From contig NZ_CP149932.1 in assembly GCF_037949795.1 (NCBI RefSeq), positions 682,001 to 746,000 of the forward strand: 64,000 nt of DNA, in the 5' to 3' direction. The notes below the pieces were generated by a model. That model saw only the letters and a list, made by a program, of their open reading frames with translations, was not told the origin of the DNA and ran no database searches. Source of the DNA: Thioclava sp. GXIMD2076. Its GTDB lineage: Bacteria; Pseudomonadota; Alphaproteobacteria; Rhodobacterales; Rhodobacteraceae. Below are positions 29,511 to 40,293 of this stretch, in pieces. How positions within the stretch are numbered: the stretch's first letter is position 1; every line of letters begins with the position of its first letter. Position numbers and translations under genes: made by a program.

Positions 29511-29587
29511 GGCCCCGTGGCTCAACTGGATAGAGCAGCCCCCTCCTAAGGGGCAGGTTGCAGGTTCAAATCCTGCCGGGGTCACCA
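29511..29587 (+). tRNA. tRNA-Arg (anticodon CCT)
   Basis: 77 bases including an encoded CCA. Acceptor GGCCCCG/CGGGGTC, D stem GCTC/GAGC, anticodon stem GCCCC/GGGGC with loop CTCCTAA, T stem GCAGG/CCTGC. It reads AGG codons. Its 3' 47 bases (29541-29587) are repeated at 40247-40293 and mark the integration site of the island, so the present 3' half is the element's version. Confidence 0.95.
29541..29587 (+). repeat. attL, tRNA-Arg 3' half
   Basis: 47 bp running from the anticodon loop to the CCA, matching 40247-40293 at 45 of 47 positions. The two differences are 29560 (G versus A) and 29576 (C versus T), which pair with each other in the T stem. Confidence 0.93.
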
Positions 29588-29632
29588 CTTTTCAGCTTTA
29601 CATCAGGCACTTACGATCTGCGCGCGGGCATA

Positions 29633-29657
29633 TCCTGCAGCTTCTTGCAGGATTTTC
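29633..29657 (+). terminator. Terminator after tRNA-Arg
   Basis: TCCTGCA (29633-29639) and TGCAGGA (29646-29652) form a perfect stem with a 6-base loop, followed by TTTTC. It is 46 bases after the tRNA and lies inside the element, so the element supplies the tRNA terminator. Confidence 0.7.
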
Positions 29658-29690
29658 TGTCGGTTTTCGGTCCCGGATCGAGAGCATCCC

Positions 29691-29706
29691 GTACAAAACC
29701 CGTACA
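29691..29706. promoter_or_regulatory. Candidate integrase arm sites, left
   Basis: GTACA at 29691-29695 and again at 29702-29706, six bases apart, about 105 bases inside attL. The same GTACA-N6-GTACA arrangement occurs inside attR at 40168-40183. Confidence 0.4.
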
Positions 29707-29747
29707 GCCGGACCGGGCTGGCTCTGATTTAGCGGGGAGATGGGCAA

Positions 29748-29814
29748 AGAAAAACCTCGGTCCGGCGGCAACCGAAACCGAGGCAAATTCAAAAGCAGGC
29801 ACGAAATTCTGCTT
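29748..29814 (-). ncRNA. Candidate ctRNA controlling repC
   Basis: On the minus strand a good promoter, TTGTGA (29849-29844) - 18 bases - TATACT (29825-29820), would start an RNA near 29814. It can form hairpin AAGCAG/CTGCTT, then a terminator stem CCTCGGT/ACCGAGG (29783-29777/29761-29755) followed by TTTTTCTTT. Size (about 67 nt), two-hairpin shape, antisense orientation and position just before repC match the ctRNA (incalpha) that sets copy number in repABC replicons. It would pair with the repC leader. Confidence 0.65.
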
Positions 29815-29864
29815 CCCAAAGTATAGCGCATTGAGCCGCCCTGTCACAACGAAAATCCTGTGGC

Positions 29865-29889
29865 GCGACCTCCCCGATGGGAGGTTCGC
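29865..29889 (+). promoter_or_regulatory. Hairpin masking the repC ribosome site
   Basis: CCTCCC and GGGAGG, with CGAT as loop, extended by GCGA/TCGC with a one-base bulge, end exactly at the repC ATG. The 3' arm is the Shine-Dalgarno sequence. In repABC leaders, ctRNA binding favours such a structure and shuts off RepC translation. Confidence 0.65.
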
Positions 29890-31119
29890 ATGACGCACGT
29901 GTTGACACACCGCGGTCTGCCGGAAGGGATGACCCGATGGGACCTCTACGGTCTCTTGGTGAAGGCGGCGAAGCACTTCGGCCTGACCGATACGACGCTC
30001 AAGTACCTGCGCTTCGCGATCTCCCGGACGCAGGACCAGGATTATGCCGCAGGCAGGATCTGCGCCCTGTGGCCCTCGGTCTCGGAAACCGCATCGCAGC
30101 TGGAGGCGGACCCGCGCCAGATTGCCCGGGCCGAGGCGCGCTTAGCAGAGCTGGGCTTCATCGTGAAATCCAGTGCAGCACGATGCCGCCGATACGGCGT
30201 CAGGTCGGAAAACGTTATCCGCTACGCTTTCGGCATCAACCTCGCTCCGCTCGTGGATCGGGCCCGCGAGATTGAGGCAGCCGCGCGGAAGACTTGCTTC
30301 GAGAAGGAAGAGGCCAAGCGTCTGCGCCTTCATATCCACAAGCTCTTGGAGCGGATCCGAACCTCTGGGGACGCTTCCGCCGAAGAGGCCGCAGAAGTGA
30401 TCCTGCCATCTCGGCGCCCCTCCCGCATCTGGCGCTATGCGCGGCTGAAGGAGATCGCCGATGCGCTGGAAGCATTGATCGAGACGTTCGCCGAAGCGTC
30501 TGTGGCAGTGGAAATGTCCGACCGGTGCGACGCGGATGTCGCACCCAGAGAAGGTAGAAAAACAAACTCAAAAAGATGTAGCAGCGGGGAGCCCGAACCC
30601 CGGCTGACCCCGGCGCAGTTCTGCATTCTCGCCAGCCCAAGCTTCGAAGATGCGGTTCGGCAGTACGCGCCCCCCGATGCCCCGCCGGATTGGCGCACGA
30701 TCCCTGCCGCGGCAAAAGATTGGGCGCAGGTACGAGGTATCCCAGTTGGTCTCTGGCAGCGCCAGGTCGACTGCCTCGGTCCGGAGAAAGCGGCCATCTG
30801 TCTTCTAGTCGCAGATCGAAATGCAGAGCGGGTCGGCAGTGTGCATCAGGTCGATGACCTTCGCCGCGCGTTCTTGGGCTTGGCGCGCAACACCGCTGCG
30901 CGTGGTTCCGCACTTCACGGTTTGATCGGAGAGCTCCAAGGTTTGCGGCGTCAATTGCACGACCGCGCCACCATGCCCGACGCTTCAGGTCATGTGCCGC
31001 GGAGTGGTGGTGAGATCGCCTTCCACACGGCAGGCGAGCCACCGCTTCGCAGCCGCCAGCGGCGGCTCCCAGAGGCAACGGGGCAGGTCTTCAGCGAAAT
31101 GTCAGAGGGGGCCGAGTGA
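29890..31119 (+). CDS. repC: RepC-type replication initiator
   Basis: 409 residues. The N-terminal half has the RP-C winged-helix region ('WDLYGLLVKAAKHFGLTDTT', 'GRICALWPSVSETASQLEAD', 'QIARAEARLAELGFI', then 'NVIRYAFGINLAPLVDRARE'); the C-terminal part (about residues 235-340, 'LTPAQFCILASPSFEDAVRQ') is the RP-C C-domain. RepC initiates replication in repABC plasmids of alphaproteobacteria, with the origin usually inside repC. Here repA and repB are absent and repC heads the mobilization operon. Its stop overlaps mobC (TGATG). Confidence 0.85.
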   Translation: MTHVLTHRGLPEGMTRWDLYGLLVKAAKHFGLTDTTLKYLRFAISRTQDQDYAAGRICALWPSVSETASQLEADPRQIARAEARLAELGFIVKSSAARCRRYGVRSENVIRYAFGINLAPLVDRAREIEAAARKTCFEKEEAKRLRLHIHKLLERIRTSGDASAEEAAEVILPSRRPSRIWRYARLKEIADALEALIETFAEASVAVEMSDRCDADVAPREGRKTNSKRCSSGEPEPRLTPAQFCILASPSFEDAVRQYAPPDAPPDWRTIPAAAKDWAQVRGIPVGLWQRQVDCLGPEKAAICLLVADRNAERVGSVHQVDDLRRAFLGLARNTAARGSALHGLIGELQGLRRQLHDRATMPDASGHVPRSGGEIAFHTAGEPPLRSRQRRLPEATGQVFSEMSEGAE

Positions 31120-31562
31120 TGGTCACGGGACGGAAATCAAGTTCACCCACGTCTTGCGACGCGGGAACAGGCGAGGGGGCTGCGCCCCCTTCGAACCCCC
31201 CGGCAGTTTCGGGAGCCAAGTATGCCGAGCAGTTGTCCCGATCGATCACCTTCCGGGTGTCCCAGTTTGAGAAGGACGCATTGGATGACATCGCGCGTCA
31301 GGCCCGCCGGCCTCTAGCGGAGCTGCTGAGAGAGGCCCTAGGGATGGTGACGTCCGGCCACCGCACCAACGTCCCCATGGCGCCGCCGGAACTGATACGG
31401 GCCGTCGCTCGCCTCGAGGCCGACATGGACGAGGTCACGCGCGTTCTGCGGGCCGCCGAGGCAGATGGCAGCTATCTGGACCGCCTGGCGATCCTGAGCC
31501 TGCTTGTCGCCATCGATCGGAAGCTGGGCAAGCTGGCGCACCGGCATTGGAGCTGGCGATGA
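31119..31562 (+). CDS. mobC: MobC-like mobilization accessory protein
   Basis: 147 residues. A disordered N-terminus is followed by a ribbon-helix-helix-like segment ('RSITFRVSQFEKDALDDIAR', 'PLAELLREALGM') and a C-terminal helical MobC block ('IRAVARLEADMDEVTRVLRA'). MobC proteins bind near oriT and help the relaxase open the strands. It is coupled to repC (TGATG) and to the relaxase (ATGA), which fixes the start. The helical tail is typical of MobC of ColE1-like systems. Confidence 0.75.
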   Translation: MVTGRKSSSPTSCDAGTGEGAAPPSNPPAVSGAKYAEQLSRSITFRVSQFEKDALDDIARQARRPLAELLREALGMVTSGHRTNVPMAPPELIRAVARLEADMDEVTRVLRAAEADGSYLDRLAILSLLVAIDRKLGKLAHRHWSWR

Positions 31563-33136
31563 TGGTCAAGTTCTTCGACCATGGTCAGGGCGAGGCCGCT
31601 CCTGCGGTGAAGTACCTTATCGAGGAGGTGGTGGTAGACTACGACCAGTACCGACAGCCCAAGCGCGACGCGGCTGGCAGGATCAAGCGTGTGCGCCGCT
31701 CGATCTCGCCCGAGGTTCTGAAGGGGCACCCGGAGCGCATGATCGACCTCGTGGATGCTGTGCCGCATCGCTGGCGATACAAGTCCGGGGTGTTGAGCTT
31801 TGCCGCCGAGGATGCTCCGACAGAAGCGCAGCAGCGCCAGATGATGGAGGCGTTTGAGGCCTTCGCTTGCCCGGGCCTAACCCATGACAGCTATCGGATG
31901 TTGTGGGTTCGCCATCTGCACGCAGGTCGCGTAGAGTTGCATTTCCTTATGCCGCGGATGGAGCTGCGGACGGGAAAGTCCCTCAACATCGCGCCGCCAG
32001 GTCACGAGCAGTCGTTCCTGGCTTTCATGGATTTGCACAACCGCCGGCATGGCTGGGCCGATCCCATGGACCCGGCGCGGGCCCGCGACGTGAAGACCAT
32101 CACAGAAGCGCCAGAACGGGCGCAGACACGAGAAGCGGTCCACGAGTGGGTAAAGGAGCAGGTCAGTCTTGGGGCGATCCTTGACCGCGACACGCTGCTC
32201 GAAGCGCTCAAGAGCGTCGGCTTCGCCATCCCACGAGCGGGAGACGATTTCGTGACCGTCGCCGACCCAGACCAGCCAAAGAACAAATGGCGTTTGAGAG
32301 GAAGGTATTTCTATGACGACTGGACCGCAGATGCAGCTCAGCCCGCGCATCCGACAGAACATGGAGCAGATGCTGGAGGCTCAGCTCGACTCGCTGCAAT
32401 CCCAGTTGAAGAGCTCGAACGACGTGTTGCGGAAGACTGCGCAAAGCGCCGCGCGTACAATCTCGGACGATTTGGACAGTCTTCGCGATCTGTCCCGCAA
32501 GAGCACCAGGGACCTGATGGACGAGGTGGCGCAGCGAAGGGTCGAAATCGAGAACCTGATGCAGGAGCTGGAGCAGCAGCGCCTGAGGCGCGGCCAGATC
32601 GTGACGCTGAGGGCGGTGGCCCTGATCCTGTCGGGGATCGCCCTCGCCGGGTTGATGGCGGCCTTCAGCGCGTTCTTGGGCGCGAAGGCGGCGACACTGC
32701 CGCCGCCCGAACCACCGATCCAGCTTATCCCGGAGCAATTGACGGGCAGTCGGACTATCCGTGGTGTCGGCGGCCTGGGACAGGTGATCGTCCTGCCACA
32801 AGGACTGTCGCCCGCAAGCTGCCCGATCGGCGCCGGAACGAACCGCATATGCCTGACGATGGAGTGATCCCCGATGACCCTGACACCGCTCGAGAAAGAG
32901 TTGCTCGCCTGCGTCGAAGAATTGGAGAAGAGCGTCTCCGCGTGCATGCAGCGGCAACTCGAGCAAGAGAAGGCGCTCGCCGAATTGCGGAGCGAATTGA
33001 ACGCCTCGTTGTCGACCTTGCACGGCGCCTTGGAGGCCGGGCGCCGGCCGCCGGAACGGACCGAGCCAGAGGAGCGCAAGCGGACGGGATTCATCCGCAG
33101 GCGCCCCTGAGGTTTGGTATTAAGCCAGAGCAGTGA
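31559..33136 (+). CDS. mobA: Relaxase, ColE1/MOB-HEN-like
   Basis: 525 residues. The N-terminal relaxase domain (about residues 1-230) has 'KYLIEEVVVDYDQYRQPKRD' and the catalytic stretch 'VRHLHAGRVELHFLMPRMEL' (His119/His121, Glu126, His128), like the H-E-N signature of ColE1-type relaxases but with His in place of Asn. It would nick oriT and pilot the strand. The C-terminal half (after about residue 250) is Arg/Gly/Ala-rich with little structure, as expected where two other genes are read in another frame of the same DNA. Confidence 0.82.
   Translation: MMVKFFDHGQGEAAPAVKYLIEEVVVDYDQYRQPKRDAAGRIKRVRRSISPEVLKGHPERMIDLVDAVPHRWRYKSGVLSFAAEDAPTEAQQRQMMEAFEAFACPGLTHDSYRMLWVRHLHAGRVELHFLMPRMELRTGKSLNIAPPGHEQSFLAFMDLHNRRHGWADPMDPARARDVKTITEAPERAQTREAVHEWVKEQVSLGAILDRDTLLEALKSVGFAIPRAGDDFVTVADPDQPKNKWRLRGRYFYDDWTADAAQPAHPTEHGADAGGSARLAAIPVEELERRVAEDCAKRRAYNLGRFGQSSRSVPQEHQGPDGRGGAAKGRNREPDAGAGAAAPEARPDRDAEGGGPDPVGDRPRRVDGGLQRVLGREGGDTAAARTTDPAYPGAIDGQSDYPWCRRPGTGDRPATRTVARKLPDRRRNEPHMPDDGVIPDDPDTARERVARLRRRIGEERLRVHAAATRAREGARRIAERIERLVVDLARRLGGRAPAAGTDRARGAQADGIHPQAPLRFGIKPEQ
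32313..32867 (+). CDS. MbeB-like membrane protein nested in the relaxase gene
   Basis: 184 residues read entirely within the relaxase gene in another frame, with AGGAAGG before its ATG. Residues about 10-95 are a coiled coil ('MEQMLEAQLDSLQSQLKSSN', 'EIENLMQELEQQRLRRGQ'), about 98-125 a transmembrane helix ('ALILSGIALAGLMAAFSAFL') and the rest a proline-rich tail ending 'CLTME'. Architecture and position match MbeB of ColE1, which anchors the relaxosome at the membrane. Sequence identity could not be tested. Confidence 0.7.
   Translation: MTTGPQMQLSPRIRQNMEQMLEAQLDSLQSQLKSSNDVLRKTAQSAARTISDDLDSLRDLSRKSTRDLMDEVAQRRVEIENLMQELEQQRLRRGQIVTLRAVALILSGIALAGLMAAFSAFLGAKAATLPPPEPPIQLIPEQLTGSRTIRGVGGLGQVIVLPQGLSPASCPIGAGTNRICLTME
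32874..33110 (+). CDS. MbeD-like coiled-coil protein nested in the relaxase gene
   Basis: 78 residues, same frame as the MbeB-like gene and 6 bases after it, again wholly inside the relaxase gene. The start 'MTLTPLEKELLACVEELEKS' and the following heptads closely follow the pattern of ColE1 MbeD/MobD, a small coiled-coil mobilization (entry exclusion) protein. GGAGTG precedes the ATG. The basic tail ends 'FIRRRP'. Confidence 0.68.
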   Translation: MTLTPLEKELLACVEELEKSVSACMQRQLEQEKALAELRSELNASLSTLHGALEAGRRPPERTEPEERKRTGFIRRRP

Positions 33137-33504
33137 AAGACGACGAAAAAATGACAGAAAAAACTTCGCTGCGGAGAGCGGCAAGACCTTCGTATCCGGC
33201 CGATACACGAGCACGTGCGGTCCAGGACGTACTGGCTATCCAGAATGATCACCCGTCCCTCTGGGCTGCCGTCTCCGAGGTGGCGTCGCGTGTGGGTTGC
33301 GCTCCCAAGACCCTGCTGGAGTGGGTTCAAGAAAGTGGTCTGTTAGAGACCGTTGATCCAGTGCTTCTGTCCAACCGGAAGCGCCTCGCTGCGATGTCGA
33401 AGGCCGATCTTGAGCTAGAGAACCAGCGACTGCGCGCCGAGAACGACGTGTTGCGACGGGCCTGCCTGATCTTCGCTCGCGGCCCGGCAGCGGGAGGGTT
33501 CTAA
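33133..33504 (+). CDS. Stand-alone IS3 OrfA-like HTH protein
   Basis: 123 residues, starting at a GTG that overlaps the relaxase stop (GTGA). The N-terminal homeodomain-like region ('ADTRARAVQDVLAIQNDHPS', 'VASRVGCAPKTLLEWVQESG') and a leucine zipper ('LELENQRLRAENDVLRRA') are those of IS3-family OrfA. There is no orfB and no terminal repeats; instead its stop overlaps the phosphoesterase start (TAATG). It therefore behaves as a fixed operon member, possibly a recruited DNA-binding protein. An alternative ATG start is 33151. Confidence 0.7.
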   Translation: MKDDEKMTEKTSLRRAARPSYPADTRARAVQDVLAIQNDHPSLWAAVSEVASRVGCAPKTLLEWVQESGLLETVDPVLLSNRKRLAAMSKADLELENQRLRAENDVLRRACLIFARGPAAGGF

Positions 33505-34070
33505 TGGCGCATTGGTACACGGCGGACCTGCATTTCGGGCATGAGGCTATCATCGGTTTCTGCAAACGTCCGTTCCGCAGCGCCAGCCATATGGACGGCG
33601 CGCTGCTGGAGAACCTTTGGTCCAAGGTCGGCCCAGAGGACGATCTATGGATCGTAGGTGATTTTGCCGGGGGAAAGCGATCTGACGATGAGGCCTGGCT
33701 ACACGGCATCTTTCAGCGGCTGCCAGGTGCGCGGCGTCATCTGGTCATCGGCAACCACGATGGCGCTGCGACGCGCTCGTTGCCTTGGGACAGTATTAGC
33801 CATCTCGCGCAAGTGGAGGATGCGCCAAAGGAACCGCCTCTAACCCTCTGCCACTACCCCATGATCACCTGGGAGCACGCCCGGCGCGGCGCGCTCCAGC
33901 TCTTTGGTCATGTCCATGAGAATTGGGCAGGGACGAGGAACGCGGTGAACGTTGGGGTAGATGTCTGGGACTATTGTCCGGTGCAATTCGAGGCGATCAG
34001 CCGTCGTGCGCGCTGTCTTCCAGTGAATTCACATTGGAAAGACGCCGAGCCGCGGTCTGCCGGCGCCTAG
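33504..34070 (+). CDS. Metallophosphoesterase
   Basis: 188 residues with the complete calcineurin-like motif series: 'YTADLHFGHEAII' (about residues 5-17), 'WIVGDFAGG', 'LVIGNHDG', 'CHYPMITWEH' and 'FGHVHENW'. This subgroup ('DLHFGH...GNHD...HYP...GHVH') contains small dimetal phosphodiesterases, often phage- or plasmid-borne. It is translationally coupled to the OrfA-like gene and so belongs to the replication/mobilization operon rather than the cargo. Substrate unknown; nucleic-acid end processing or a nucleotide signal are possibilities. Confidence 0.82.
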   Translation: MAHWYTADLHFGHEAIIGFCKRPFRSASHMDGALLENLWSKVGPEDDLWIVGDFAGGKRSDDEAWLHGIFQRLPGARRHLVIGNHDGAATRSLPWDSISHLAQVEDAPKEPPLTLCHYPMITWEHARRGALQLFGHVHENWAGTRNAVNVGVDVWDYCPVQFEAISRRARCLPVNSHWKDAEPRSAGA

Positions 34071-34247
34071 AAGCCTTAGGTTGGTCCAGGCACACCGAGC
34101 TCTGGCTGCAGCGCCATCGGCACTGGCGCGTAAGTTGCCAGGTCACGGTGATTGGCTGCTCGCCCTAGTGGGCTAGGAAGCGTGGCTTCCATAAAGCCGT
34201 CAGCCGGTCTACTTATCTTCTCAAATCGAATTTCAATCTGAGTCAGC

Positions 34248-34760
34248 ATGATAAAGTACCGAACCCTCATCGGCGCCAATGCCGCACAAGAAGAGATAGA
34301 TACCTTCGTTGAATTGGTTGCCTCTGGTGGCGCGGTTGATGAAGTGTATGTCCGAATGGGCGTGGTTCGACTGGGTGCTCAGATCGCCTTCGCTGAAGTT
34401 GCCGGCCAAACAGTTGGCGTTGCCGCTTTGAAAGTACCATTGCACGAGTACAGAATTGGCCTGCAAGGAACTAATAAAGCAAACTATTCTCTTACAGAGC
34501 AAGAATACCCATATGAGCTTGGATACGTATCAGTTTCACCCGAGCATGCGGGCAAAGGTATAGCTAAAGCATTGGTCGCAGAGGTGATGCGTCTCGCAGG
34601 TGGAAACGGCATTTTTGCCACAACAAGCCACCCGACGATGAAAGAAGGGATTTTGCCATCCTTCCAATTCGTTCCGGTCGGAAAAACTTGGAAGAACCTA
34701 TCTGGAGATACCCTGATACTATTGGTTAAGAAGTCACAGAAAGATAACACTGATCAATAA
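34248..34760 (+). CDS. GNAT-family N-acetyltransferase
   Basis: 170 residues. The acetyl-CoA binding motif is 'YELGYVSVSPEHAGKGIAKA' (about residues 87-106, with the H-A-G-K-G-I-A loop) followed by 'LVAEVMRLAGGNGIFATTSH'. Substrate is unknown. Codon use is noticeably more AT-rich than in the mobilization genes, so it is probably recently acquired cargo. It is convergent with the membrane-protein/OLD operon. The preceding gap (34071-34247) contains only a short GGAAGC/GCTTCC hairpin (34176-34190). Confidence 0.78.
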   Translation: MIKYRTLIGANAAQEEIDTFVELVASGGAVDEVYVRMGVVRLGAQIAFAEVAGQTVGVAALKVPLHEYRIGLQGTNKANYSLTEQEYPYELGYVSVSPEHAGKGIAKALVAEVMRLAGGNGIFATTSHPTMKEGILPSFQFVPVGKTWKNLSGDTLILLVKKSQKDNTDQ

Positions 34761-34767
34761 TGTCATG

Positions 34768-34798
34768 CCCTACGTCGATATTCAAAATCGGCGTAGGG
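34768..34798. terminator. Hairpin between convergent cargo genes
   Basis: CCCTACG-T-CGAT (34768-34779) pairs with ATCG-G-CGTAGGG (34787-34798) with one internal mismatch. It lies 7 bases after the GNAT stop and could stop transcripts from both sides, but there is no T-run. Confidence 0.4.
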
Positions 34799-34873
34799 GT
34801 GCAGTGTTGTCTAGGTGCGTAGTGGTAGTCGCGGTGGTGCATGTCTTTAATCAAGCATCACCTTGAAATACAC

Positions 34874-35440
34874 CTAAAACCACCACTTCTTTCGCGAACC
34901 GGACTTGCCAGCCAAGAACGATCGCTCGAGTCTTTTACATGAATTTTTCAGCTTTCTCCGGTTGAGGTAGTTTGGGGCTTTTCCATGAAAGAAGAAGTTC
35001 TCCAGAGTTGCGTCAAGATCTTCACGTAATTCGGTGGCATGCCTTTGAATTTTAAGTAGCTGGGGATTGTTTCGATCATTGCGGTAATGCTCGAAGTATA
35101 AAGGGGTGCCCTTTAGGTACCAGATCGCATCGAATATGAACGGCAGCGAGTATCTATGACGGATTCTGAGTTCGCTTAGGGCCTCGGCGGCCAACTTCGC
35201 CCTACTTAACTTCTCATTGAATACATCATTATTTTTGGATTTTTTTGCCTCAACGCTAAGAGCGACAACTTGGTAAAGGTAGTGGCTTAGGTCCTTCAAA
35301 TCTTGGCCAATGAAATTTTGCCGCGCAGCAAGAAGAGACATCAAGCGGGTGGCCCTCATGCTTGAAAATGTTGCAATGACAGCCGCTGCGGCGGCAATCA
35401 CGGCCGCCACCAAAGCGGCTAAGCCTTGATCTATTTGCAT
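34874..35440 (-). CDS. Small membrane-anchored partner of the OLD nuclease
   Basis: 188 residues. One N-terminal transmembrane helix (about residues 6-28, 'GLAALVAAVIAAAAAVIATF') is followed by a mostly helical, strongly basic cytoplasmic part ('RATRLMSLLAARQNFIG', 'YLKGTPLYFEHYRNDRNNPQ', C-terminal 'SGSRKKWWF'). No family is recognised. It begins 33 bases after the OLD gene on the same strand, so the two form an operon. The ATG at 35440 is preferred over TTG 35458 because the helix starts right behind it. A membrane effector or anchor role is an inference. Confidence 0.65.
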   Translation of the reverse strand: MQIDQGLAALVAAVIAAAAAVIATFSSMRATRLMSLLAARQNFIGQDLKDLSHYLYQVVALSVEAKKSKNNDVFNEKLSRAKLAAEALSELRIRHRYSLPFIFDAIWYLKGTPLYFEHYRNDRNNPQLLKIQRHATELREDLDATLENFFFHGKAPNYLNRRKLKNSCKRLERSFLAGKSGSRKKWWF

Positions 35441-35473
35441 AACATTTCCACATGCCAAGTGGTCGTGGACTTC

Positions 35474-37435
35474 TTAAATATACTCATTGATCCGCTCAAT
35501 TGCCGATTGGAACGCTTCTAGGGATTTCTGAACCGATTTGCTGTTCTCGTCCAGTAATTCTGGATGGGTCAGAAGATGATAGGCGGGGTCATAGTGGCTA
35601 AAGACAGGAACCGTTTCTGGAAGAACGCGAAAGTATGCCTCAGCTTTTTTTACCTGCCGGACTGTATTTTCGTCCGCTTCGATCAATTTCTGTATAGTCA
35701 ACTTGCTCTTTCCAGTGAGCTCGTAGGTTGCGTTGACTAGATCCACGAAAAACGCGTTGTCGAAGAAGTCTTCAGTATCAGCCTCATCTTGACCTGTTAC
35801 TTCCGTCGCAAGAACAATGCGCTCACGATCGAGCAGCTCTGACTTGTATAGGTCGTCCAGTTTTCGCCGTTGGCCGCGATCAAAGTCTGTCAAGACTGCA
35901 ACATTCAAGTTGTTGCCATAGAACAGTTTTACGAACGGAAGGACTTTGTCGATTCCACCCGACGGGCAAATTGCCCATTTGCTATCCAGGTGTGGACGCC
36001 CGAGAGATTGCAACTTTTTTGACATCGCCTGAAGATAAAGGATGTCACTGGGGCCTTCGACGAGCAGAGTATTTGGCGAGATGATTAGCCCTTGCGTTAC
36101 CTCAAAGCCCATTGCCCCGAAAATCGGAAAGTTCGTCTGTGGATCAGTAGTCAAGACGTCAGGGCGAATCTTCGTCCCTTCCGAGTATGGGCGGTCGCGT
36201 TTGTCACGTTTGACAACATCTTCGACCGTGCGAACGCTTGCGAGGTTTTCGGCCGGTACCATAAACGGAGAATGTGTGGAAAAAATGATCTGATGTTTGG
36301 GCTCCAGCTGCTCTTTAAAGTAGCGCAGGAGGTCCTTCTGGGCGGTTCCGTGCAGGGTCAGCCCAGGTTCATCTAGTAGTACGATGACATTTCCTTGGTG
36401 TTTTTTAATCTGTGCAAACTTGACTAGGAAGGAAAAGAACCAGATGAAACCGGCCGACCTCTCGGAGAATGGAACGGTCACGCGGTGTAGGTTATTTTTG
36501 ACGCGTGCACGGGCGACAGGTCCGTTATTGAACGGTGCCGGGTCTTCTTTCTTTCCTTCATCTAGGCGGACTTCGATCTCGAGTTGGTCGTTCTGCGTCC
36601 AATATTCAAAGATCTGATCGGTTATCCTATTAGCAGCTGCCTCACACTTGGCATTCATCTCTTCGAACTTCGTTGCACCCGTAAGTTCGTCCAGTGTTGT
36701 GCCAGCGTATTCAAGGAAATCGAGGAAAACTTGATCTCCATCTTTTATGCCGCCATTCTTATTATCATGCGCCAGCTGATTGATGGATATCTCGCCCGCC
36801 ATGCGGTCATAGTGTGAAAAGTATAGAAATTTCGGAAGTCCAGGTTTGAGCAGATCTATTGCCTTCTTAGCGGCATTCTGATCTCGGTACTTGTGCAAGG
36901 CATCCAGAAGTTCTTGCTGGGAATTCGAGCGTTCGTCTAGCTTCGAGAGGCGATCTGCCGCTGCCAATGTCGAATTGCAATCTTTGAGGCTTACGGCCTC
37001 GGCTTCTGAAAGATCATATCGAGTGATCAACTTTTCCAAAAGCGTCTTTTGATCAATCGGCACTGTCCAAGTAGTGCTTGTTTCATTGTAAGACTTCCGG
37101 ATTTTTACCTCATCTCCGTTGACCACATCCTTTCCGAACTCCTCCGCTAAGAGTGCGATATCCGAAGCTTCCAAGTGCCAGGTTGTTTCAACAACCTGTG
37201 CGTCTTCACCCTCATGCTTTTCCTCGTAGTCAGCCAAAAACCTACGTGGATAATTTTCTGTTTTATTGTACGCAGTGTATTCCTTGTCCGTCGAGTTTAT
37301 CCCCTCCAACGCCTTTAGAAATGCCGTTTTTCCAGCCTCGTTTTTTCCGACAAGACAAGTCGACGGACCGATTTCAACCAGATTTGAGTCAAGGATACTG
37401 CGATAGTTCTTAACGTGAGCGGAGGTAAGCTGCAT
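35474..37435 (-). CDS. OLD-family ATP-dependent nuclease (AAA + Toprim)
   Basis: 653 residues. ABC/SMC-like ATPase: Walker A GKNEAGKT (residues 30-37), signature-like 'FSERSAGFIWFFSF' (323-336), Walker B VIVLLDE (350-356) and switch His in 'FSTHS' (385-389). A Toprim domain follows with 'LLVEGPSD' (Glu460) and 'LTDFD' (Asp517, Asp519), the residues that bind metal for DNA cleavage in OLD nucleases. Such proteins act in anti-phage defence (P2 Old, GajA). There is no UvrD-type helicase, so this is not a standard Gabija pair. Codon use is AT-rich compared with the chromosome. Confidence 0.88.
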   Translation of the reverse strand: MQLTSAHVKNYRSILDSNLVEIGPSTCLVGKNEAGKTAFLKALEGINSTDKEYTAYNKTENYPRRFLADYEEKHEGEDAQVVETTWHLEASDIALLAEEFGKDVVNGDEVKIRKSYNETSTTWTVPIDQKTLLEKLITRYDLSEAEAVSLKDCNSTLAAADRLSKLDERSNSQQELLDALHKYRDQNAAKKAIDLLKPGLPKFLYFSHYDRMAGEISINQLAHDNKNGGIKDGDQVFLDFLEYAGTTLDELTGATKFEEMNAKCEAAANRITDQIFEYWTQNDQLEIEVRLDEGKKEDPAPFNNGPVARARVKNNLHRVTVPFSERSAGFIWFFSFLVKFAQIKKHQGNVIVLLDEPGLTLHGTAQKDLLRYFKEQLEPKHQIIFSTHSPFMVPAENLASVRTVEDVVKRDKRDRPYSEGTKIRPDVLTTDPQTNFPIFGAMGFEVTQGLIISPNTLLVEGPSDILYLQAMSKKLQSLGRPHLDSKWAICPSGGIDKVLPFVKLFYGNNLNVAVLTDFDRGQRRKLDDLYKSELLDRERIVLATEVTGQDEADTEDFFDNAFFVDLVNATYELTGKSKLTIQKLIEADENTVRQVKKAEAYFRVLPETVPVFSHYDPAYHLLTHPELLDENSKSVQKSLEAFQSAIERINEYI

Positions 37436-37825
37436 TGATCGACCTAGTTGTTACATCGCGGCCACATTATGACCAGAGGCCGGCGGCGCGCAACACAGTA
37501 TGATACGCGCGCTTCGACAGATCACCGCTATGCTTAGACCTGCACGTGGACTGAGTTTCTGGCGTGACAAGTCCTCAGAATAAAGTCGCCTCCATATAAA
37601 TCGATCATCTGCGCTCAGTGGTGGCGGGTTGTCTACATTTTTGCTGTCGCTGAACGCACGGCCTGGGCACGATTATGACCATTTGCTTCTAGACCAACTC
37701 AAGACTTCCGGGAGAAGCTTGGAAAACTTCCTTTGGTTACGCCTTGGCGTTATGCTGGTCTAAGCGCCTAGTAATTTGGTATTGTTTGTTTATTTTATTG
37801 ACGGAGTGGCAATCAACGTTCGGGA
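37436..37825. other. Non-coding cargo spacer
   Basis: About 390 bases between the OLD start and the regulator stop. No convincing open frame, tRNA or terminator is seen. It must hold the promoter of the OLD operon. The mixed composition suggests a junction between cargo and the integration module. Confidence 0.5.
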
Positions 37826-38521
37826 TCACTCGAGGTTTTTCCGCTTCGAGTCTCGCAAACGACGTTCTGCGCGACGCTCTTCCTCATGACGCTCTTGCAA
37901 GAGTTCTTCGATGGCATCCAATCCCCAGCCGCCCTCTCGATACCAGCGGTCAAGGTTGGCCCACTCTTCCGCAACGCGCTTGGGGACCGATGTCGTCTCC
38001 TCTGCGCCCAGTTCGCTAACCTCACCTGCGATTTCTCGAGCGGGCGCCTCAGCATCAACGGGCAAATAGAGATCGTACTCGGAAAGAAGCGCCATGGCCT
38101 CGTTATAGCGATCAATGATCCTATCGCGGGTTTCGGCCCAAATCGGATCGCGGCGGACGTTGAGGAGGTCGTGCATGTCGACGTCTCCACGTGCGAGAAT
38201 CTGTAGGAGTAGGGAGCTCGGCATGTCGCGCTCTCCACTTTCGTAACCTCGATAGGCTCGTACGGAGCAGCCCAGTTCTTCTGCCATCTGATCTTGAGTG
38301 AGCTCGCGACGACCGCGGTATTTGCGAAGCCCTTGGCTGAGACTCATTTCATCTCGCCGGTAGCGGCGTTCAAAGGTTCGGGCCTCTTCAGCTTCCTCAT
38401 CTCGCGCGCTCTGAGAACGCTCGATCTGCTTTCGCCTGATCCAACCCTTTTGCTGTGCGGACATGCCTGAACGAATCACCAAATTGTCTTGGTTCGGGTC
38501 GGGCTTGAACTGGAATGGCAT
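37826..38521 (-). CDS. XRE-family transcriptional regulator
   Basis: 231 residues. A basic, charged N-terminus is followed by a Cro/C1-type helix-turn-helix (about residues 64-120, 'GLRKYRGRRELTQDQMAEEL', 'CSVRAYRGYESGERDMP') and a long helical C-terminal part without a recognised domain. It diverges from the excisionase-like/integrase genes with a 136-base interval, the usual place for a control protein of excision. The start ATG at 38521 has AAGGAA upstream; 38578 (ATG) and 38590 (TTG) are longer alternatives. Confidence 0.75.
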   Translation of the reverse strand: MPFQFKPDPNQDNLVIRSGMSAQQKGWIRRKQIERSQSARDEEAEEARTFERRYRRDEMSLSQGLRKYRGRRELTQDQMAEELGCSVRAYRGYESGERDMPSSLLLQILARGDVDMHDLLNVRRDPIWAETRDRIIDRYNEAMALLSEYDLYLPVDAEAPAREIAGEVSELGAEETTSVPKRVAEEWANLDRWYREGGWGLDAIEELLQERHEEERRAERRLRDSKRKNLE

Positions 38522-38657
38522 TGAACGTTCCTTCATCAGATCGAAAACCTGCCAGATCTTGCCGCTTTTCACCCCCATGAGAAAACGCAATTATTTCATT
38601 TGCTTAACTCATTTTTGTGGGCCATGATCTTAGCAAGAAAGCGGTTTGGAGGCGCAG

Positions 38658-38897
38658 ATGAACAATACATTTGAGAACGCAGTCACGCCAGAGATTTGGT
38701 GCGAGCGGCTTCGCTCGCAGGGGGCAGAGGTCTCTGCGCGGGTTTTACGGGCGAAGGCTCGTTCCTGCGGCCACTACTACGCCCTCGGTCGTGTCATGCT
38801 GCTATCAGCGGAGCATGTCGAGGCGATCCTGTCCGTCGAAGGAGCCCAGGTGCGCAGAGGTGGGCACGCTATTAGGACTTGGTCCCATGGGAAGTGA
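38658..38897 (+). CDS. Excisionase-like DNA-binding protein 1
   Basis: 79 residues from ATG 38658 (GGAGG five bases upstream). The pattern 'VSARVLRAKARSCGHYYALG' followed by 'RVMLLSAEHVEAIL' looks like an excisionase/MerR-type winged helix, and closely parallels the next gene ('IAERTLREKANRLGACFRIG', 'NAMIITPDQIDQIL'). The two are therefore tandem paralogues. It is the first gene of the integration operon and overlaps the next by 11 bases. Confidence 0.6.
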   Translation: MNNTFENAVTPEIWCERLRSQGAEVSARVLRAKARSCGHYYALGRVMLLSAEHVEAILSVEGAQVRRGGHAIRTWSHGK

Positions 38898-39273
38898 CTT
38901 TGATCAAAAGCGCGATGCAGCCGTTTGCTCGGAGGAGGCCCGATGCGGTTCGGCCATTCTGGACGCTGGTAAGTCCCCTGCAGACTGGGTTTCCTGGTTG
39001 CATAAGTACCGCCAGATTAACATCGCAGAGCGAACGTTGCGGGAAAAAGCGAACCGCTTGGGGGCGTGCTTTCGGATCGGCAATGCCATGATCATCACGC
39101 CCGACCAGATCGATCAAATTCTGACGGAGGATTGGAAGTGCCGCTCGAACCGTACCTCAGGGGCAAGGTCTATTGGGTCAAAGGCTGGATCGAATACAAC
39201 AGCCGCCCGATCGCCGGTCCATATCGACAAAGCACGAGATCGACTTCGGAAGCTGGCGCACGGGACTGGATAA
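38887..39273 (+). CDS. Excisionase-like DNA-binding protein 2
   Basis: 128 residues. The winged-helix-like core (about residues 30-82) is paralogous to the previous gene. The final 45 residues are read in a different frame over the start of the integrase gene, giving an overlap of 136 bases. The tail is basic and low in structure. It probably directs excision with the integrase; a control role on int translation through the overlap is possible. Confidence 0.55.
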   Translation: MGSDFDQKRDAAVCSEEARCGSAILDAGKSPADWVSWLHKYRQINIAERTLREKANRLGACFRIGNAMIITPDQIDQILTEDWKCRSNRTSGARSIGSKAGSNTTAARSPVHIDKARDRLRKLAHGTG

Positions 39274-40244
39274 GTGAAGAGACCGAGCTGCAGATCCGCA
39301 AGCACATCGTTGGCGAGGAGCGGGCACTTCGTTTCGCGGATGCAACCGAACTCTACCAGCCTGACAGAAGAAGCGCGCGCCAGTTAATACCGATCCTCGA
39401 TGAGATCGGCAGTTTGCCTCTCGCGGAAATTACCGGGCGCCTGCTGAAGAACCTCGGTCCGAAGCTACGCCCGAATGCGTCCACGGATACTTGGTGGCGG
39501 GAAATCGTGACGCCAGCACGGGCGGTCATCAACAATGCCCACGAGCTGAAGGGGACCCTTTTGATCCGAGTGCGTCCTTACAGTCAGTTCGAGCGCAATG
39601 CCCAAGATAAGCGGCGCGGCAAGACCAGCCGGGTGGAGAGAGTTCCAGCGACTCGCGCCTGGATAGATGCCTTCTGTGCCAAAGCCGATCCTTACAATGC
39701 GGCCATGGCTCGCTTTATGTTCGAAACAGCCGCCAGGATCGATCAAGCCGTTTCTCTGACGCCCGACGATCTACGTTCGGAGGAATGCAAGGTCCGTGTG
39801 AAAGCGCAGAAGGGGCATCCGGAAAGCTGGATCACAGTCTCACAGGAAATGATGGATGAGTTGCAGCAGCTGCGCCCCAAGCGCCCCCGCAATCGCCGGA
39901 CTGGGGCGATTTTGCCGCCGCGAATATTCGGATACGCCAGCTCGACTGGCTACAATAGCCGCTGGAAGACGATCTGTAGCCGCGCTGACATTCCTTACCT
40001 ATCGGCCCATGCCGCAGGGAGGCATGGATTCTTCACCGAGCTGGTGATCCGTCAGGGCGTGGATCCTGTGACGGCCGCGCAGGCAGGCCGGTGGTCCGAT
40101 GCCAATCTGCCGATGCGCATCTACGCTCATCCGGAGAGTAAGGAGGCCGACATTCGGGCGCGTTTTCGTACACAGCCTGTACAGACGGGCTTTCCGGAAA
40201 ATGATAACCTACAGAAAGAAAAAGGAGAAATGGGCAATGGATAA
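39138..40244 (+). CDS. int: Tyrosine integrase of the island
   Basis: 368 residues from a GTG with GGAGG seven bases upstream (39126-39130). Catalytic domain: Arg in 'FMFETAARIDQAVSLTPDDL' (R-box), Lys in 'RVKAQKGHPESWITVS', 'LSAHAAGRHGFFTEL' (H-x-x-R), and 'AGRWSDANLPMRIYAHPES', where Tyr is the nucleophile. It ends 2 bases before attR. The position next to a tRNA-derived attachment repeat shows it is the enzyme that inserted the element into tRNA-Arg. Confidence 0.88.
   Translation: MPLEPYLRGKVYWVKGWIEYNSRPIAGPYRQSTRSTSEAGARDWISEETELQIRKHIVGEERALRFADATELYQPDRRSARQLIPILDEIGSLPLAEITGRLLKNLGPKLRPNASTDTWWREIVTPARAVINNAHELKGTLLIRVRPYSQFERNAQDKRRGKTSRVERVPATRAWIDAFCAKADPYNAAMARFMFETAARIDQAVSLTPDDLRSEECKVRVKAQKGHPESWITVSQEMMDELQQLRPKRPRNRRTGAILPPRIFGYASSTGYNSRWKTICSRADIPYLSAHAAGRHGFFTELVIRQGVDPVTAAQAGRWSDANLPMRIYAHPESKEADIRARFRTQPVQTGFPENDNLQKEKGEMGNG
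40168..40183. promoter_or_regulatory. Candidate integrase arm sites, right
   Basis: GTACA at 40168-40172 and 40179-40183, six bases apart, inside the 3' end of int and 64 bases from attR. The spacing is the same as in the left pair at 29691-29706. Confidence 0.4.
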
Positions 40245-40246
40245 CA

Positions 40247-40293
40247 CCCTCCTAAGGGGCAGGTTACAGGTTCAAATCCTGTCGGGGTCACCA
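40247..40293 (+). repeat. attR, displaced tRNA-Arg 3' half
   Basis: 45 of 47 positions equal attL. It lacks the tRNA 5' half, so it is not a gene. The T-stem pair is A-T here and G-C in the intact tRNA. It represents the chromosome's original tRNA end, displaced by integration. Confidence 0.93.

Follow-up and report, generated by a model that had tools for sequence, protein, structure and literature searches.

The repC gene of a chromosomal island in Thioclava sp. GXIMD2076 is preceded by a conserved minus-strand unit that probably encodes an antisense RNA of about 65 nt, which would pair with the repC leader, lower RepC, and keep the excised element from over-replicating. The best reading of the sequence, by analogy, is antisense control of repC like that exerted by the ctRNA of known solo-repC plasmids; from this we infer copy control of the excised form. 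The window analyzed is a 64,000-nt stretch of this genome (NZ_CP149932.1:682,001-746,000, forward strand). It lies in contig C1 of a 4.15-Mb genome of five contigs, and all positions below refer to the window unless another locus is named.

The preliminary description placed a minus-strand promoter and a terminator antisense to the repC leader, and both are present. The promoter scan located the promoter at 29820-29849 of the minus strand, with the -35 element TTGTGA at 29849-29844 and the -10 element TATACT at 29825-29820 (TTGTGA-N18-TATACT). An overlapping reading, GTGACA-N16-TATACT, matches 10 of the 12 consensus bases. This promoter is separated by 35 nt from a 13-pair terminator hairpin (29754-29784, minus strand) identified by folding, alignment, and a covariance model; its loop region is GGTTGCCGCC, and a T-run follows the stem. 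With the start placed 7 nt past the -10 element, the predicted antisense RNA (ctRNA) spans 29749-29813 of the minus strand, about 65 nt, an extent that follows from the promoter and the terminator. Two promoter-like sites lie near the repC leader compared to a shuffle mean of 0.2. Three terminator-like sites were counted on the two strands together compared to a shuffle mean of 0.5, and two of the three are on the plus strand, further upstream. A 67-nt antisense RNA folds with -26.2 kcal/mol (z -3.44), and none of 200 shuffles was as good. A joint unit, defined as a promoter with a score of at least 9/12 and a terminator 40-100 nt downstream on the same strand, is found on the minus strand, is not found on the plus strand, and is not found in any of 1000 dinucleotide-shuffled leaders. 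By its sequence, the RNA has a promoter and a terminator of its own opposite the rep leader, as in the ctRNA class. The small hairpin described for the antisense RNA is present near the 5' end (AAGCAG/CTGCTT) in the predicted fold of the 67-nt RNA of the window, but such a 5' hairpin is weak across 26 related loci (mean z -0.77; z < -1 in nine). Rfam antisense-RNA families gave no match over the window at the gathering threshold, none over 29580-30100 at E values up to 10, and none at the antisense site in 40 locus scans. A 16-nt repeat (94%) is common to the antisense terminator region (29749-29764) and the integrase coding sequence (39446-39461). Through this repeat the int mRNA might in theory be a second pairing partner of the antisense RNA, and the repeat is perhaps due to chance.

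The repC locus is integrated at a tRNA gene and is free of partition genes, as had been described. A complete tRNA-Arg(CCT) gene (29511-29587, plus strand; ARAGORN and Rfam) is the integration target at the left end of the island. The left copy of a 47-nt direct att repeat covers the 3' part of this tRNA (29541-29587, plus strand), and the right copy, which is 96% identical, lies directly 3' of the integrase gene (40247-40293, plus strand). The complete tRNA and the right repeat bound the island (29511 to 40293). The genes in between are repC (29890-31119, plus strand, 409 aa; PF03428, E 2.4e-23), a small mobilization protein with a weak MbpA-like match (31116-31562, plus strand), an MbeA-like relaxase (31547-33136, plus strand; NF047848, E 2e-36, under the curated cut-off), a phosphoesterase (33504-34070, plus strand), an OLD-like ATPase with a TOPRIM domain (35474-37435, minus strand), an HTH regulator (37826-38590, minus strand), and a tyrosine integrase (39066-40244, plus strand). 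Domain scans identified the mobilization protein, the ATPase, the regulator, and the integrase; the ATPase is probable cargo with a possible defense role. The 10 island proteins scanned also include an IS3-type fragment, an acetyltransferase, and one protein without a match. No ParA-like, ParB-like, or conjugation pore protein was found among these 10, and none of the 12 ParA-superfamily matches in the whole genome lies inside the island. Judged by its genes, the island is an integrative mobilizable element whose repC stands alone: it has att repeats at a tRNA, an integrase, and a relaxase, with no pore of its own and neither repA nor repB. SGI1 is likewise an integrated element with a plasmid-type replicon, as proposed here for the island, in the accessible portions of PMC10954446 and PMC7826253, but its replicon is of the IncN2 type and it belongs to Gammaproteobacteria (PMC10954446). 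What is said of antisense RNA in the accessible text is general and does not concern SGI1.

Several smaller features of the island were recorded. A terminator-like inverted repeat (29632-29653, plus strand; terminator scan) sits between the tRNA and the repC leader; it might insulate repC from tRNA readthrough, and similar repeats were seen by eye in several relatives. The direct repeat CCCGTACA occurs twice with an 11-nt period at 29688-29706 of the plus strand, as read from the sequence. GTACA repeats resembling it were seen by eye in several tRNA-Arg islands and may be an integrase or regulator site. Of 18 related loci searched, 8 contain all or part of the phosphoesterase, with 60-67% identity in L070-L074, loci where the window relaxase has no tblastn match. 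Another repC island contains a VirC1/ParA-like ATPase gene (L161:12755-13567). Six genomes of the same genus share the left flank of the window, and four stretches were compared. In three of the four, the tRNA-Arg and a LacI-type gene are present and repC is absent from the 4.2-4.6 kb past the tRNA; the fourth has repC. The right flank of the window (aconitase) is absent from all four stretches, and the exact empty site was not seen there.

RepC homologues were gathered from 394 family genomes, a plasmid collection, and named genomes. The genome scan used a four-protein profile, a seven-protein profile being too divergent. The plasmid collection gave one homologue, carried by Paracoccus ferrooxidans on a replicon of 1.46 Mb, and the named genomes gave 17 loci. 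A search for a 16-nt pattern with one mismatch was dropped as too common, with matches in 180 of the 394 genomes. The island group comprises 25 distinct loci with a RepC match, and 23 leaders were counted, with L079 (a 54-residue C-terminal match with no start) and L011 (hairpin absent) left out; L004, L005, and L006 coincide with L068, L073, and L072, respectively, and each place was counted once. By a single rule, a minus-strand terminator lies 97-138 nt upstream of repC in 21 of the 23 leaders, compared to 0-3% of shuffles (100 for each leader). L078 and L080 fail the rule, and L011 has no such hairpin. The same rule gave no plus-strand terminator in any of the 23 leaders. Two loop classes are found: class A (14 leaders, the window included) has the loop region GGTTGCCGCC, and class B (9 leaders) has GCTGCAAC, GTTGCAGC, and similar loops. 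A complete tRNA-Arg(CCT) stands just upstream in 11 of the 23 leaders, all of class A. It is unlikely that the RNA of the window is a relic in an island past excising or replicating, where the antisense gene merely silences a chromosomal repC or decays. The RNA does occur beside a truncated or missing repC in L010, L012/L107, L068, and L110, but the repC, relaxase, and integrase frames of the window are open and both of its att repeats are present. RepC is 94-96% identical in Paracoccus, Pseudooceanicola, and Salipiger, and recent transfer is therefore indicated. In Pseudooceanicola antarcticus (L065, 94%), the leader closely resembles that of the window as well.

The control predicted for the plus strand was compared across the same leaders. 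The hairpin described over the repC ribosome-binding site GGGAGG, adjoining the ATG (29865-29889, plus strand, by folding), is present in the window, with z values of -2.26 and -2.61 in two fold analyses. It is not a constant part of the system and was rejected as such: it is missing in three of five close relatives (L064, z +1.49; L065, +0.75; L066, +0.43) and is present in the other two, L067 (z -2.39) and L068 (z -1.12), the latter showing a compensatory change. A different helix pairs the ribosome site with repC codons in L069-L071 and L075 (z -3.56 to -4.86). Because the mean z for ribosome-site pairing over the 23 loci is -1.36, some sequestration of this site is common in the fold models, but not by one structure. 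A switch model in which pairing at the antisense target closes the ribosome site was rejected. When the antisense target was blocked in a simple fold model, ribosome-site pairing in the window was unchanged (0.41 and 0.41). Over the 23 leaders it fell in six (only in L007 by more than 0.05), rose in seven, and was unchanged in 10, so there was no consistent closing in silico. In p42d, the leader paired with the ctRNA forms an intrinsic terminator, according to the available text of PMC3155836, and a plus-strand terminator is therefore needed for that mechanism. A terminator-like site of the p42d type was found on the plus strand in none of the 23 island leaders compared to 6 of 16 plasmid-type leaders, among which repAB is annotated in three and assumed in the rest. 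Because this attenuator was not found, the leader sequences make control at translation or mRNA decay more likely.

The closest loops are those of replicons with a solo repC. Host contig C4 (45 kb) carries a repC gene (L088:5703-6953) without repAB beside it, as judged by eye, and the nearest ParA-type match is about 19 kb away. The loop of its antisense hairpin, GGTAGCCGCC, is one base from that of the island, and two loci of the solo-repC type (L091 and L092) have the same loop as the island. This likeness is at the loop level only; covariance model R2 (below) misses the contig C4 hairpin and gives L091 no more than 21.6 bits. In antisense systems, a difference of a single loop base can be enough to set incompatibility groups apart. 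The ctRNA of the solo-repC plasmid family is reportedly treated by Izquierdo 2005. The island has repC outside a repAB operon with an antisense RNA gene upstream, which is also the layout of the solo-repC plasmids pRmeGR4a and pSmeLPU88b, where the plasmid RNA represses repC and is a determinant of incompatibility, according to the accessible part of PMC10194956. The two are likened by description. That family is found on rhizobial plasmids that also have repABC (PMC10194956, as far as available), whereas the island is a chromosomal, tRNA-integrated, mobilizable element of Rhodobacteraceae. A solo repC is also noted for P. yeei pYEE5 in the available text of PMC6209633.

The RNA had been described as a repABC-style ctRNA. 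In p42d, pSymA, and the Ti plasmid, the repABC ctRNA is an antisense RNA of 55-59 nt between repB and repC, in the portion of PMC10194956 that was available. The island RNA differs from it in its loop and stem sequences, in the absence of repA and repB (the island repC follows the tRNA), and in that a plus-strand attenuator was not found. We consider it quite unlikely that the island RNA descends from a repABC plasmid as a canonical ctRNA of that type and confers incompatibility with repABC plasmids. The RepC proteins are homologous, and position and general shape agree, since 16 of the 22 plasmid-type or host repC leaders scanned have a minus-strand hairpin 126-164 nt upstream of repC, at the same position relative to the gene as in the island. 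However, the loops of the plasmid-type hairpins differ by eye from that of the island, the window RepC scores 93.4 bits and thus falls under the RepABC_RepC equivalog cut-off of 150, and relatives of the RNA precede genes other than repC. The absence of an Rfam match also points away from a repABC ctRNA, although this is a weak test that 11 plasmid-type loci (L013-L023) likewise fail. The canonical form was rejected on the loop differences and on the attenuator comparison (0/23 versus 6/16). What stands of the earlier wording is the antisense RNA gene before repC, with solo-repC replicons as its closest relatives by loop; a control unit kept from repABC is too narrow a description, as relatives of the RNA also precede unrelated replication genes. 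The suggested incompatibility with repABC plasmids is doubtful, the hairpin being at the same place but with other loops and without the attenuator.

The distribution of the antisense RNA beyond repC was examined with covariance models. Model R1 was built from the class A hairpin (10 sequences) and run on 390 genomes of the order. It matched in 102 of them at E 0.01, and 18 loci were looked at closely (L101-L118). The nine best matches (at least 59 bits, L101-L109) are all antisense before repC or a repC relic, and ARAGORN found tRNA-Arg(CCT) at seven of the nine. Seven of these nine were not rows of the model; the hairpin of L105 is letter-identical to that of the window. L110 (55 bits) adjoins tRNA-Arg and has no repC match. 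The matches at 45-51 bits (L111-L114) lie before other genes: L111 and L112 precede a gene for 134 aa that belongs to an unknown family and has an AAA_25 gene after it, and L113 and L114 stand directly before a Prim-Pol gene, the gene calls in L112 and L114 being based on sequence likeness rather than on a domain scan. L118 has a VapE-like gene second in line, at an R1 score of only 38 bits. No RepC match was found in L119-L130. Model R2 was built from 18 sequences; L111, L113, L114, L116, L117, and L118 are among them, and their later R2 scores are therefore not independent. R2 matched in 16 of the 394 family genomes at E 1e-5. Four of these 16 loci are at repC or its relics, five have Prim-Pol, AAA_25, HTH_36, or D5_N, and in seven (L115, L150, L151, and L154-L157; 38-49 bits) no replication gene was recognized, by reading only. 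The RNA lies directly before a Prim-Pol gene in L146 (66 bits), before a small gene and then AAA_25 in L147 (66 bits), directly before an HTH_36 gene in L149 (49 bits), before a head-tail connector gene with HTH_36 next in line in L152 (43 bits), and before a small gene and then D5_N in L153 (42 bits). The matched terminator 45-mer is at 1501-1545 in L111, L113, L146, L147, L149, and L152, and at 142-186 in L153.

At the level of the class, R2 matched in 6 of 385 genomes at E 1e-4, the genome of the window among them, with nothing above 40.4 bits besides the window. The six foreign matches (33.1-40.4 bits) have no evident replication gene, and five resemble ordinary terminators by eye. Because of this background, matches under about 41 bits (L116-L118 by R1, L154-L157 by R2) are unsafe if judged by score alone. 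The many-genome searches used stricter filters, and weak matches were lost. One class-level match from another family (L143, 34.7 bits) is beside an HNH-like gene and may be due to chance, phage-related, or a distant cassette. The leaders of L113 and L147 are nearly identical as far as the ATG, past which one leads into Prim-Pol and the other into the AAA_25 operon; this suggests that the leader is exchanged as a unit between replication genes. These neighborhoods suggest that the cassette passes from one replication module to another, unrelated one; its placement before Prim-Pol and AAA_25 genes is surer than that before the other replication genes. Two further observations concern the arrangement of copies. 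Contig C1 of genome G477 carries three same-strand copies of the RNA at 2774670, 2811734, and 2852647 (L116, L135, and L139), spaced by 37 and 41 kb, and the middle copy follows an integrase gene. The cassette is close to a serC leader (RF00517) in L006, L146, and L152, which may be another integration site.

Promoter positions were compared in an ungapped alignment of 26 loci anchored on the terminator, with near-duplicates, L115, L151, and L154-L157 left out. A -35 TTG stands exactly 60 nt before the terminator 45-mer in 20 of the 26 loci, compared to an average of 0.45 at other offsets, and it is at this offset in 14 of 18 less similar loci. A -10-like element is at offset 36 in 20 of the 26 (mean over offsets, 0.89; 10 loci at the next best offset). 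A promoter with at least 8/12 matches to the Escherichia coli consensus is at the right place in only 9 of the 23 repC leaders. These positions bear on the idea that the hairpin and T-run are a mere terminator or insulator near the island end with no regulatory antisense RNA. The two do form a strong intrinsic terminator, and most class-level model matches (33-40 bits) resemble ordinary terminators, but this explanation is improbable given a same-strand promoter element that keeps a fixed upstream distance in 20 of the 26 loci, a loop sequence that is kept while the stems change in pairs, and a distance from terminator to replication gene that stays roughly 100-140 nt.

The stem covaries across related islands, in agreement with the promoter position and the strand asymmetry. 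In the joint alignment of 22 distinct rows, 95.8% of the cells are paired and 10 of the 13 pairs show double changes. The compensatory cells number 59 compared to a shuffle mean of 16.3, a count reached by none of 500 shuffles, and slid structures gave at most 22; the stem tested came from members of the tested set, which favors it. Further pair types are unexceptional, being reached by 74 of the 500 shuffles. Class B alone has seven pairs with a double change, which no shuffle of 500 reaches. Class A alone is weak in this respect, with two such pairs (reached by 279 of 500 shuffles), and its compensatory cells and score were reached by none. Among 15 distinct hairpins there are 23 G-U pairs on the minus strand compared to one A-C, the counterpart of a plus-strand G-U; a further eight mismatches are of other kinds. 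Because the wobble pairs favor the minus strand 23 to 1, the alignments make the minus-strand RNA the likelier object of selection, as in the ctRNA class. It is highly improbable that the conserved hairpin works instead in cis, as a regulatory element of the plus-strand repC mRNA such as a protein or ribosome target: the complementary strand folds into a hairpin too, but the wobble pairs, the T-run after the minus-strand stem, and the conserved minus-strand promoter all speak for the antisense RNA.

Some carriers of the cassette resemble phage satellites. Capsid-forming PICIs are small integrated elements with genes for an integrase, replication, a terminase, and a portal or capsid. The element of L113 (L160) has Prim-Pol, AAA_25, TerL (terminase), portal, and integrase genes, and the element of L147 (L158) has AAA_25, capsid, and portal genes and an integrase by likeness to that of L160. 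A tRNA-Phe lies just 3' of the integrase in both, and the replication, packaging, and integrase genes fall within about 11 kb. L158 and L160 thus share the gene content of the elements named cfPICI in the available part of PMC11389934. The window element differs in having a relaxase and repC, with no capsid gene among the proteins scanned. The RNA of satellite P4 is named CI RNA. A small RNA with antisense complementarity to satellite gene leaders is described for the P4 CI type and for PLE IIR in the accessible text of PMC7567579. The satellite-type leader motif occurs in seven viral contigs, and R2 matches six of them (41.6-66.1 bits), two of which resemble the L160 and L158 elements again. 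One further viral contig, apparently the place of L068, has a repC-type hairpin. L172-L177 are small elements with the cassette and phage packaging genes, satellite-like by eye.

The window element, L158, and L160 have the replication gene just inside one end and the integrase gene at the other end. Because of this arrangement, the integrase gene would run into the leader of the replication gene in the excised circle, in the window element through attP. The layout varies: in L113/L160 and L116/L135 another integrase gene stands directly upstream of the cassette, possibly reflecting tandem elements, and in L131 the integrase gene is divergent to the cassette.

Antisense control of repC would proceed in four steps. 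The conserved sigma-70-type promoter and intrinsic terminator would produce the RNA. Its hairpin loop would start pairing with the complementary sequence of the repC leader; we infer a loop-first contact because the loop is constant within a class while the stems change in pairs. Pairing would then lower repC expression, probably through an effect on translation or on the stability of the mRNA. RepC would finally replicate the excised circle; for the repABC plasmid p42d, the available text of PMC3155836 states that RepC is sufficient for replication and that the origin is inside repC. Excision would bring the replication gene under active transcription, and the antisense RNA would cap initiator synthesis. 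A very similar cassette of promoter, RNA, and leader is in use before different replication genes in further integrated elements of this family. A more tentative proposal, which we hold to be possible rather than probable, covers integrative mobilizable and phage-satellite-like elements of Rhodobacteraceae: one portable antisense cassette, comprising the promoter, the RNA, and the leader as far as the start codon, would be swapped whole among unrelated genes for RepC, Prim-Pol, and AAA_25 proteins, with D5_N, VapE-like, and HTH_36 genes as probable further partners, and its carriers would cross-repress each other after excision. The loop is common to the carriers, and mutual repression would therefore follow within one cell, where plasmid-type and satellite-type elements would be incompatible with, or immune to, one another.

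In plasmids, repC is known to be under antisense control, and the same control in integrated elements may be new. In the literature searched, mostly open-access, we recognized no antisense RNA before repC in an integrated element and none common to such elements and satellites. An antisense RNA at the att end suggests that the islands are equipped for replication once excised, with copy control of their own. The presence of nearly the same RNA and leader before Prim-Pol and AAA_25 genes would link the plasmid-type and the phage-satellite-type islands of the family via a common RNA switch, and cross-element incompatibility becomes directly testable with one 65-nt RNA supplied in trans.
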